Both the position numbers and the translations under genes were made by a program. The notes under the pieces are model-generated. The model worked only from the letters and a program-made list of their open reading frames with translations, ran no database searches and was not told where the DNA came from. Source: Actinomycetota bacterium (GTDB lineage: Bacteria; Actinomycetota; Acidimicrobiia; Acidimicrobiales; CADCSY01). Taken from it: a stretch of 51,540 nt of DNA. This document shows, one piece after another, positions 9,638 to 45,809 of the stretch (its first letter is position 1; each line of letters begins with the position of its first letter). The DNA is taken from NCBI GenBank assembly GCA_016781105.1, contig JADDRA010000079.1:3659-55198 (forward strand). The letters run 5' to 3'.

Positions 9638-11068
9638 CTAGCGCTGGATGGCCTTGGTCTCCAGGTACTCCTCCAGCCCGGCCACCCCCAGCTCCCGACC
9701 GTTGCCCGACTGCTTGTAGCCCCCGAAGGGGGCCCGGGGGTTGAACATGGCCCCGTTGATCTCCACCTGCCCGGTGCGCAGGCGCCGGGCCACGGCGAGG
9801 GCACGCTCGGGGTCGGCCGACCACACCCCCCCGGCCAGGCCGTAGTCCGAGTCGTTGGCCAGGGCGACCGCCTCCTCCTCGGAGTCGTAGGCCAGGATGG
9901 CCAGCACCGGCCCGAAGACCTCCTGGCGGGCCAGGGCGCTGTCGGGCCGCACCTCGGAGAAGATCGTCGGGCGCACGAAGTACCCCCGATCCAGTCCCTC
10001 GGGCGGCTCGGGCCCCCCCACGACGAGCCGGGCGCCCTCCTCGAGCGCCTGGAGGATCGCGGCGCGCACCCGCTCTCGCTGCTCGAAGGATGCCAGCGGC
10101 CCGATCGTGGTTCCCGCCGCGAAGGGGTCACCGGGGACGTAGGTGGCCGCGGCCTCGGCCGCCCGGTCCTCGACCTCGGACAGCGCGGCCCGGGGCACCA
10201 GCAGGCGGGTGAGCGCCGAGCAGGTCTGGCCGGCGTTGAGGAAGCACTTGGCCACCCCGTCGGGCACGGCCTGGTCGAGGGGGGCGTCGTCGAGGACGAC
10301 GTTGGCCGACTTGCCCCCCAGCTCCAGCGCCACCCGCTTCACGGTCCGGGCCGCCACCTCGCCCACCCGCCGGCCGGCGCCGGTCGAGCCGGTGAAGGAC
10401 ACCATGTCGACCTCGGCGTGGGACACCAGGGCCTCACCCACCGGTCCCGCCCCGGTGACCAGGTTGAGCACGCCGGCGGGGAGCCCGACCTCCTCGGCCA
10501 GCTCGGCCAGGACGAAGGCCGACAGCGGCGCCACCTCAGAGGGCTTGAGCACCACGGTGCACCCGGCGGCCAGGGCCGGCGCGACCTTGGCCACCGCCTG
10601 GTGCAGCGGGTAGTTCCAGGGGGTGACGGCGGCCACCACCCCGACCGGCTCGCGCACGACGAGCGACGGAGGCTCCTCCACCTCGAAGGGGAAGTCGGCA
10701 ACCAGCTCGGCGGCGTGGGCCAGGGTGAGCGTGGGCAGCCCGACGTGGATCAGCACGCTCAGGTTCTCGGGCGTGCCCACCTCCCGGGCCACGAGGGTGG
10801 CGATCTCGTCGGCGCGCGCCGCCATCGCCGCGCCCAGCGCCGACAGCAGGCCGGCCCGCTCCGGCACCGGCGTCTGCGACCAGGCGGGCAGGGCATGGCG
10901 CGCCGCGGCCACCGCCCGATCGACGTCGGCCGGGCTCGCCTCGGGGACACTGCCCATGACCTCCTCGGTGGCCGCTTCGATCACGTCGCGCGAGCCCGAG
11001 CCGTCGGGCACCACCCACCGTCCGCCGAGGTAGAGCCGGTCTCGCCGGTGGAACGGGCCTCCCGTCAC
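9638..11068 (-). CDS. NAD(P)-dependent aldehyde dehydrogenase family protein
   Basis: 476 aa; [38 protein letters not shown] motifs. Confidence 0.93.
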
Positions 11069-11075
11069 CGGCTCA

Positions 11076-12272
<1,197 letters not shown>

Positions 12273-14474: not shown

Positions 14475-14768
14475 ATGGCTGTGGTGACCGGGCTGCGCGA
14501 CGACGACATGGAGACCACGTGGCTCCGGCCCGGAGTGACGGCCATGAGCTCGGACACCCCCCTCGGGACCGACGCCGACGGGACCGACGCTGACAGCGCC
14601 GACGTGGTCGACGGCGACAGCACCGACACCACCGACGGCGACACCGCCGACACGACCGACAGCACCGACACGACCGACAGCACCGACAGCACCGACACGA
14701 CCGACAGCACCGACACGACCGACGTCGACTCGACCGACGTGGTCGACGGCGACACCGCTGGCGCCTGA
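14475..14768 (+). CDS. 97-aa protein with Asp/Ser/Thr-rich repeat tail (candidate substrate/precursor peptide)
   Basis: ATG with GAGGTG SD; MAVVTGLRDDDMETTWLRPGVTAMSSDTPL then GTDADGTDADSADVVDGDSTDTTDGDTADTTDSTDTTDSTDSTDTTDSTDTTDVDSTDVVDGDTAGA. Confidence 0.6.
   Translation: MAVVTGLRDDDMETTWLRPGVTAMSSDTPLGTDADGTDADSADVVDGDSTDTTDGDTADTTDSTDTTDSTDSTDTTDSTDTTDVDSTDVVDGDTAGA
14599..14754 (+). repeat. In-frame STD/TTD coding repeat flanked by an exact 21-bp direct repeat (CCGACGTGGTCGACGGCGACA)
   Basis: Flanking copies at 14599-14619 and 14734-14754, 135 bp apart; interior alternates GACAGCACC and GACACGACC units. Confidence 0.9.
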
Positions 14769-16017
14769 GGCCCCCGCCGCAGTCGGCGGCGCGCTGGCCC
14801 GCTGCGTCGGCGACGCCGCCGACTTCCTCGACCGGAGCTGGGCCCGCCGGCCCCACCGCCTCGACCCCCCCGACCCCGGAGCCTTCGCCGACCTGCTGTC
14901 GCTGGCAGCCGTCGACCACGTCCTGTCGACGACCGCCCCGCGCACGCCCTCCTTCCGGCTGGTCGCCGACGGCACCCCCCTGCCCGAACCCTCCTACACC
15001 CGGTCGGGCCAGGTGGGGGGCAAGCCCTACCGGGGGGCAGCCGATGTCGCCCGGCTGTCCCAGGCCTTCGCCGACGGGGCCACCGTCGTGCTCCAGTCGC
15101 TGCACCGCTCGTGGGCGCCGCTGGCCCGCTTCTGCCGTGACCTGGAGCTGACCCTCACCCATCCGGTGCAGGCCAACGCCTACCTCACCCCGGCCGGGGC
15201 CACCGCACTGGCGCCCCACCACGACACCCACGACGTGTTCGTGCTGCAGATCCACGGCCACAAGCACTGGCGTGTGGCCGAGCCGGTGGTGGAGGCGCCC
15301 CTCCCCCGCCACCGCTCCCGCCAGGCCCTGGCCGCCGCCCAGCCGCTGCTGTTCGAGGCCGACCTGACCCCGGGCGACTGCCTGTACCTCCCCCGGGGCT
15401 TCGTCCACGCCGCCACCGCTCAGGACGGCGTCTCCCTGCACGTGACCATCGGGGTCCACGCCGTGACCGCTCACGACGTGCTCGCCGCCGTGGTCGACCG
15501 GGCCGCCGAGCACCCGGCTTTGCGGGTCCCCCTGCCCGTCGGCTTCGCCCGCGACCCCGAGGCGGCGACCCTTGCGGTGCAGGCATGCGTGGCCGAGGTC
15601 GGCCGCTGGCTGTCCTCGCTCGACCCGGTCCCGGTGGCCGAGGGGCTGCGGCGGCGGTTCTGGTCGCAGCGCCAACCCCTCCTGGAGGGCCAGCTCATCC
15701 AGCTCGTCGACCTCGGCCGCCTCGACGACGACTCGGTGGTGATCCGCCGCCCCGGTGCCATCTACGAGCCGGCGTCCCCTGGTGACGGGTACGGTGACGG
15801 GGCCGGGAGCGGGGGCGACGGGGGCCGGCTGCGCCTGCTGCTGGGCGACCGGGAGCTGGTCCTGCCCGCCGAGCTCGGTCCCGCCCTGCACCGGTTGCTC
15901 GACGGCGATCCACGACCGGTGTCAGACCTCGCCGACCTGCTCGACGAGCCGAGCCGCCTGGTCCTGGTGCGCCGGCTGGTGCGCGAGGGCCTGGTGCAGG
16001 TCGTGGCCCATGTCTGA
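14758..16017 (+). CDS. JmjC/cupin-type Fe(II)-dependent oxygenase-like protein
   Basis: FLDRSWARRPHRL, VLQSLHRSWAPL, HPVQANAYLTPAG, APHHDTHDVFVLQIHGHKHWRV (HxD), YLPRGFVHAA (distal His). Frame is open upstream but has no ATG/GTG/TTG before 15013; CTG at 14758 taken as provisional start. Confidence 0.75.
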   Translation: MAPEAPAAVGGALARCVGDAADFLDRSWARRPHRLDPPDPGAFADLLSLAAVDHVLSTTAPRTPSFRLVADGTPLPEPSYTRSGQVGGKPYRGAADVARLSQAFADGATVVLQSLHRSWAPLARFCRDLELTLTHPVQANAYLTPAGATALAPHHDTHDVFVLQIHGHKHWRVAEPVVEAPLPRHRSRQALAAAQPLLFEADLTPGDCLYLPRGFVHAATAQDGVSLHVTIGVHAVTAHDVLAAVVDRAAEHPALRVPLPVGFARDPEAATLAVQACVAEVGRWLSSLDPVPVAEGLRRRFWSQRQPLLEGQLIQLVDLGRLDDDSVVIRRPGAIYEPASPGDGYGDGAGSGGDGGRLRLLLGDRELVLPAELGPALHRLLDGDPRPVSDLADLLDEPSRLVLVRRLVREGLVQVVAHV

Positions 16018-16993
16018 GGGGGCCGCTCCCCAGGCGACGGTGTCGGTGACCTGTGCCGCGGCCTCCCTGGGCCGCCACGAGGCGTTGGTGGCCAGTGCCT
16101 CCCGGGTGCGGTCGTGGCTGCTGATCGAGCAACCCGGGTCCTGGGGCCGGGACGCCCTGCTCGAGAGCGGCCTCGACCCCGTCCTGGCGTCCGCCCTCCT
16201 GGCTCGGTGCCGGCGGGCGGGAGTGCGCCCCATCCTGATCCGGCGCCCACCCTCGCTGCACTCGGCCGCTCCCGGCGCCCTTGGCCACCGGCGTTGCTAC
16301 CTGGCCCACTCCGGGATTCACCGGAGCTGGTCGGAGGCCCTCGACCTCGACGATCCCGCCTCCCTCCTCGACCTCGACCTCGGCCTGCTGGCGTCGGACC
16401 GGCCACCGGGCCTGGGGGCCGCCGAACCCGGACCGCTGCTGTTGGTCTGCACCAACGGGCGCCACGACCGCTGCTGCTCCGACCTGGGGCGCCCCCTGGT
16501 CCGGGCCCTGGTCGAGGCCGGCTCGCACGACGTGTGGGAGTGCTCCCACATCGGCGGAGACCGCTTCGCCGCCAACCTCGTGTGCCTGCCCGAGGGCGTC
16601 TACTTCGGACGGGTGGCGGCTACCGCCGGCCCAGGGGTGGTCGCCGACTACCGGCGCGGCCAGCTCAGCCTCGAGCACTACCGGGGTCGGTCGTCCCACC
16701 CCTCGCTGGTGCAGGCCGCGGAGCTGTTCGTGCGCCGGGCCAGTGGCCTGCTCGGGCTCGACGCCCTCCTGCCTCGCGCGGTCGAACCGCTCGGCGAGGA
16801 CGAGGCCGAGGTCACCTTCGTCACCGCGGGCGCCCCCGCCTCCTCGCCGCCGGGGTGGCGGGCCCGGGTGGGCCGGCGGCGCTCCCCGTGCCCGGCGGTG
16901 CTCACCTGCCGGTCGGACCGGGCCTCCTGTCCCTGGGAGTACCACCTGGTCGACCTGTCGCCGCTGGCCCTGGCCCCCTCGTCTCCCGCCTGA
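16010..16993 (+). CDS. Sucrase/ferredoxin-like (thioredoxin-fold [2Fe-2S]) family protein
   Basis: 327 aa; LLLVCTNGRHDRCCSDLGRPLVRAL...VWECSHIGGDRFAANLVCLPEGVYFGRV; start overlaps the JmjC stop (ATGTCTGA). Confidence 0.8.
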   Translation: MSEGAAPQATVSVTCAAASLGRHEALVASASRVRSWLLIEQPGSWGRDALLESGLDPVLASALLARCRRAGVRPILIRRPPSLHSAAPGALGHRRCYLAHSGIHRSWSEALDLDDPASLLDLDLGLLASDRPPGLGAAEPGPLLLVCTNGRHDRCCSDLGRPLVRALVEAGSHDVWECSHIGGDRFAANLVCLPEGVYFGRVAATAGPGVVADYRRGQLSLEHYRGRSSHPSLVQAAELFVRRASGLLGLDALLPRAVEPLGEDEAEVTFVTAGAPASSPPGWRARVGRRRSPCPAVLTCRSDRASCPWEYHLVDLSPLALAPSSPA

Positions 16994-45690: not shown

Positions 45691-45809
45691 CTCAGGCGAG
45701 CTGCGCTCGCCGCCAAGGGCAGGCTCGCTTCGCTCGCCGGAAACGGCAGGGTGCCGCCTTCGGCGGCGCTCATCTCCGTTCCGACGGTGCAGGCTCGCTG
45801 CGCTCGCCG
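45673..45809. repeat. Four copies of a ~20-bp repeat, consensus CAGGC(GA/TC)GCT(T/G)CGCTC(A/G)CC(T/G)
   Basis: Copies 45673-45692, 45693-45712 (tandem), 45720-45739, 45790-45809. Confidence 0.85.

Follow-up and report, generated by a model that had tools for sequence, protein, structure and literature searches.

A conserved actinobacterial cassette of an Asp-repeat, leader-bearing protein, a ROX-type JmjC oxygenase and a ferredoxin-like protein suggests a RiPP-like system

The analysed stretch of DNA (the window, 51,540 nucleotides in length) contains three successive reading frames on the forward strand. The first (14475–14768), recognized by its translation, orthologues and leader motif, encodes an Asp-rich, precursor-like protein of 97 residues, and a ribosome-site-like GAGGTG lies 5′ of it. 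The protein begins MAVVTGLRDDDMETTWLRPG and is made up of a leader, MAVVTGLRDDDMETTW, followed by an Asp/Thr/Ser repeat core (codons 31–97, 14565–14765). The second frame (14758–16017, start codon uncertain) encodes a JmjC_2 (ROX-type) Fe(II)/2-oxoglutarate oxygenase with a C-terminal winged-helix-like region, as indicated by PF08007 and an AlphaFold model. The third (16010–16993), whose start falls within the end of the JmjC gene, encodes a Suc_Fer-like protein, the C-terminal half of which adopts, in its model, a thioredoxin-like [2Fe–2S] ferredoxin fold with CX8C and HX3D motifs. This arrangement agrees with a sequence-only reading of the same DNA, which had described an Asp-repeat ORF, a JmjC/cupin oxygenase and a sucrase/ferredoxin-like protein on one strand. 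The window genome has a single match to each of the PF08007 and PF06999 families. Scans for promoters and terminators gave no matches. Elsewhere in the window, at 45693–45750, a 27-bp tandem repeat (CAGGCGAGCTGCGCTCGCCGCAAACGG) present in approximately two copies remains unexplained.

Translation of codons 31–97 bears out the composition first noticed for the repeat, with 23 Asp (GAC) and no Lys or Arg, and tandem repeats with periods of 9, 18 and 27 extend over 14564–14740. Comparison with orthologues from an Acidimicrobiales MAG (L002) and from a genome of the same genus as the window (G068, locus L153) gave, for the leader, dN of 0.10–0.13 and dS of 0.45–0.59 over the first 28 codons, while the repeat core grows and shrinks in frame among the three. 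Because the leader is under purifying selection (dN of about 0.1, dS of about 0.5), the 97-residue ORF is, as judged from these alignments, a real gene. An ordinary low-complexity ORF was ruled out by the leader dN/dS together with the distribution of JmjC-linked D-rich ORFs given below.

The start of the window JmjC gene is unresolved, since its frame, open from 14548, has its first ATG, GTG or TTG only at 15013, and a start there would cut off the conserved N-terminus of the enzyme, which begins at approximately 14791. Two CTG codons are candidates, one at 14758 that overlaps the first ORF's TGA and another at 14794. At most loci the JmjC gene has a separate ATG or GTG 3′ of the precursor stop, which speaks against a frameshift-fused precursor–JmjC protein, considered as an explanation for the missing start. 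The absence of a canonical start counts against the interpretation proposed here, and it leaves room for a JmjC gene that depends on coupling, the only role of the translated small ORF being to couple translation in the oxygenase operon or to regulate it. Start–stop overlaps or very short precursor–JmjC gaps at four loci (L087, L089, L095 and L107) are compatible with such a role, but we regard it as very unlikely, given that the leader is conserved at the amino-acid level, that the core expands repeatedly in frame, and that precursors are divergent or displaced at L047, L049 and L051.

The second frame matches JmjC_2 with an E value of 2.7e-28 (PF08007), and the JmjC/cupin features first noted in it, HHDTHD and a distal His, hold in alignment: H154-x-D156, K169 and the distal H217 are invariant, and none of the 68 precursor-linked enzymes covering the site lacks the active-site H, D, K or H. 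The closest sequence matches of the window enzyme are NO66 (2.6e-40), MINA53 (2e-31) and YcfD (1.9e-13). A Foldseek search with its AlphaFold model (pLDDT 87) returned NO66 as the best PDB fold (3.6e-25), followed by MINA, YcfD and YxbC. With a JmjC_2 domain carrying HxD…H and a 2-oxoglutarate Lys, and with the NO66/MINA/YcfD fold, the enzyme satisfies the criteria for the ROX type, and it has in common with NO66, MINA53 and YcfD the combination of JmjC and C-terminal winged helix. It differs from them in having a leader-bearing repeat peptide as its genomic partner and in the N-terminal RCVGD and QSLxR features, which are conserved in cassette enzymes. In a check for an RRE (PqqD-like) domain, the window enzyme gave no Pfam match over its C-terminal region, and L037 gave a weak winged-helix match. 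The enzyme also resembles FIH in its HxD…H motif and in K169, located 13 residues C-terminal of the metal-binding Asp, although FIH is far behind as a fold match (4e-9). FIH, a JmjC enzyme, hydroxylates Asn, Asp and His in ankyrin repeats (PMC4543633).

More distant JmjC paralogues occur in two genomes of the window’s order (L054, L056 and L057), adjoined by a second oxygenase-like gene and by small proteins with Tat-like RRSA(I/L)(R/K)KAA signals; no Pfam match was found among those small proteins tested. On a Pseudanabaena galeata plasmid (L133, 1–5158), a LanM-type lanthipeptide synthetase is encoded close to a related cupin gene, which hints at the use of JmjC enzymes in another RiPP setting.

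The third frame proved to be sucrase/ferredoxin-like with a thioredoxin fold, as had been inferred, by its match to PF06999 (8.4e-18) and by its model (pLDDT 92), which Foldseek aligned to Aquifex 1f37 (TMt 0.69) and to 1m2a (TMt 0.72). A Suc_Fer gene is found directly 3′ of the JmjC gene in 45 of 67 loci across the phylum, and, of 33 Suc_Fer genes in a set of 120 genomes, about 19 are next to a JmjC gene. Loci of the PTEDDENLD class, and a few others, have no Suc_Fer gene beside the enzyme, so that Suc_Fer is not essential. C147 and C156, forming the CX8C, are invariant. Apd1/Aim32 proteins, which have the thioredoxin-like ferredoxin fold and the CX8C in common with Suc_Fer, bind a [2Fe–2S] cluster via CX8C and HX3H (PMC8482512), whereas the cassette protein carries HX3D, found in 23 of 23 aligned cassette members. 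Among cassette-linked Suc_Fer proteins 56 of 57 have HX3D, the remaining one having Cys, whereas the usual HX3H is found in 13 of 14 unlinked ones; the lone Asp occurs in G135, whose JmjC gene sits about 22 kb away. At the level of sequence, the ligand switch from HX3H to HX3D therefore tracks with the cassette, a change that may or may not preserve binding of a [2Fe–2S] cluster.

At least 61 small proteins, the 97-residue one included, form a family that shares L-[T/S]-D-[D/E]-D-[I/M]-x-T as the motif of its leaders, followed by lineage-specific repeats. Within the 61, the Leu is kept in 46, the anchor Asp in 58, the Ile/Met in all and the Thr/Ser at +5 in 53. The leader is kept while the core switches class, the cores falling into DGTD/DGDASD types such as (DGTD)n (the class of the window), (PTEDDENLDAPGEHSQDTGDE)2 and (GEGPADGGSNPEGHDGGADGTA)n. 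No Pfam or NCBIfam family matches representative precursors. At L040 the leader part of the precursor (around 11055–11600) is masked as N, and the protein was left outside the 61. Besides its complete cassette, the G454 genome has a second precursor copy at a contig edge (contig 109; L154, 76–315). On a plasmid of the cultured organism S. clavuligerus (NZ_CP065235.1; L132, 4769–6164), WP_009999493, with a related leader, LEPDEIEV, and an Asp/Pro core, IADNDPSDPP..., immediately precedes a JmjC cupin gene, and an S9 peptidase and an ABC transporter are encoded nearby. Double-glycine leaders have the consensus LSxxELxxIxGG, which several of the precursor leaders fit (LSEDDIETVTGG, LSDEDINTVTGG), but Gly-Gly is not general in the precursors and the cassette has no conserved C39 peptidase.

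A profile built from 19 JmjC proteins found matches in 61 of 398 Actinomycetota genomes. The expectation that a small D-rich ORF with leader and repeat core would accompany neighbouring JmjC and sucrase/ferredoxin-like genes in other actinobacteria was met: at well-covered loci (those with a JmjC match of 290 bits or more and with 180 nt or more of upstream sequence) the precursor is present in 48 of 50, mostly just upstream on the same strand. Weaker JmjC matches had it in only 1 of 12, and that precursor is truncated by a contig end. In the reverse direction, a precursor profile identified 34 of the same genomes, 33 of them with JmjC (Fisher p 3e-30); in the exception, G556, the contig edge falls inside the precursor. 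The one exception to an order-level search, G068, has a contig that stops just after the first JmjC residues. As the precursor profile was built partly from the genomes searched, presence there is circular and only absence away from JmjC is independent; in addition, the loci share descent and the p-values overstate independence. Over 686 kb of loci, ORFs passing a D-rich-tail filter numbered 24 within 700 nt of a JmjC gene and 2 elsewhere, so the D-rich ORF beside JmjC is no chance occurrence. Nor is the linkage an artefact of overlap, because precursors on the other strand or farther off (L047, L049 and L051) retain leader and repeats.

These distributions bear on a rival reading, in which a ribosomal-protein oxygenase merely happens to have close by an acidic ORF that is unrelated to it and encodes a disordered or calcium-binding protein. 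In favour of this, the enzyme falls into the ROX group by fold as well as by sequence, and DxDG-type repeats can bind calcium. Set against this are a linkage that holds over many families with a conserved leader, the retention of the precursor where gene order has changed, the near absence of such ORFs away from JmjC and the lack of a precursor at 11 of the 12 more distant JmjC matches, and we consider the reading very unlikely. The sequence-only reading was to fall if the oxygenase clearly grouped with ribosomal-protein hydroxylases and left the repeat protein unmodified; the grouping does hold by fold, but nothing shows the repeat protein to be unmodified. Genomic context points to a substrate other than a ribosomal protein, and genomic data give good support to the pairing of precursor and JmjC enzyme as substrate and catalyst. 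Action of the enzyme on the repeat core is very probable, although this is inferred without mass spectrometry or expression data.

The composition of the cores bears on which residue would be modified. In 3467 pooled core residues, Asp accounts for 31%, and there is neither Cys nor Trp. Core Asp residues are mostly spaced by two or three residues and are followed by Ala (36%), Gly (31%), Ser (10%) or Thr (9%). Such neighbours, together with the His repeated beside Asp in some cores (GGHDGGAD), allow for another chemistry, namely hydroxylation of Thr, Ser, Gly, Ala or His, or a desaturation, crosslink or cleavage. The targets of related enzymes also vary, from His for NO66 and MINA and Arg for YcfD (PMC4543633) to Orn for BipG (PMC12707348). 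NO66 and MINA, the nearest relatives with solved structures, act on His in ribosomal proteins, and the window core has no His, which counts against the preferred reading given below. Against the other chemistries stand this lack of His and the abundance, in every core class, of Asp alone. Modification other than Asp β-hydroxylation is an unlikely, though not negligible, alternative, and Asp is on balance inferred to be the main target.

The preferred reading, which we hold to be probable, is of a RiPP-like cassette in which a leader-guided JmjC enzyme modifies an Asp core, most plausibly at Asp Cβ, with Suc_Fer as its partner. The gene, its family and leader, the linkage, the intact active site and the ligand switch are established from sequence; the residue modified, the chemistry, the function and removal of the leader and the biological role are inferred. 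The small gene would yield a precursor whose N-terminal recognition leader docks and guides the JmjC enzyme and whose repetitive core is rich in Asp. With Fe(II), 2-oxoglutarate and O2, the enzyme would then modify many core repeats, most plausibly by Asp Cβ hydroxylation. Suc_Fer, with its altered ligand motif, may serve as a dedicated redox or iron partner, supplying electrons or handling iron, a role that is inferred and only modestly favoured. Such modification would give an acidic, polyhydroxylated peptide that might bind metal, although metal binding is speculative and rests only on hydroxyaspartate chemistry; we do not think it likely. Taken in full, the proposal of a widespread actinobacterial RiPP class, in which a ROX-type JmjC enzyme makes poly-(β-hydroxyaspartyl) metal-binding peptides with the help of a Cys2-His-Asp, rather than Cys2-His2, [2Fe–2S] thioredoxin-like ferredoxin, is doubtful as a whole.

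The locus satisfies the criteria for RiPPs in that a gene-encoded precursor adjoins a putative modifying enzyme and its leader is conserved while the core varies more. In the cassette no peptidase or transporter is conserved, no RRE domain is annotated, and there is no fourth conserved neighbour; maturation by export and proteolysis is thus unexplained, although such genes can lie elsewhere. Among known classes, a graspetide was rejected owing to the lack of an adjacent ATP-grasp ligase or any further conserved neighbour, and a lanthipeptide because the pooled cores are free of Cys and no Lan enzyme is conserved. A close parallel is the biphenomycin pathway, in which the JmjC Fe(II)/2-oxoglutarate oxygenases BipG/PbsQ, likewise encoded in RiPP clusters and acting on a ribosomal precursor peptide, hydroxylate ornithine (PMC12707348, PMC12257519). 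However, BipG/PbsQ tailors one Orn among MNIO, arginase, rSAM and TldD enzymes, whereas in the cassette no modifying enzyme other than JmjC is conserved and the precursor has an Asp-rich repeat.

No description of the precursor, JmjC and Suc_Fer layout was found in the open-access literature, which leaves out most subscription papers and does not prove priority. The word ‘jumonji’ in PMC6856088 was taken as the species name Streptomyces jumonjinensis. The three-gene cassette, conserved across many actinobacteria, is apparently undescribed, and likely represents a new, RiPP-like class of ribosomal peptide. If the pairing is true, a dedicated peptide substrate could be assigned to a large set of bacterial JmjC (cupin-4) enzymes that are now orphans and whose fold would have them read as ribosomal oxygenases, and leader motif, Asp repeat and JmjC together would provide a rule for finding such systems genome-wide. 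The HX3D motif would offer a testable alternative [2Fe–2S] ligand set that tracks with the cassette. β-Hydroxyaspartate is known from siderophores, and the cassette might offer a ribosomal way of making peptides in which this residue is abundant.
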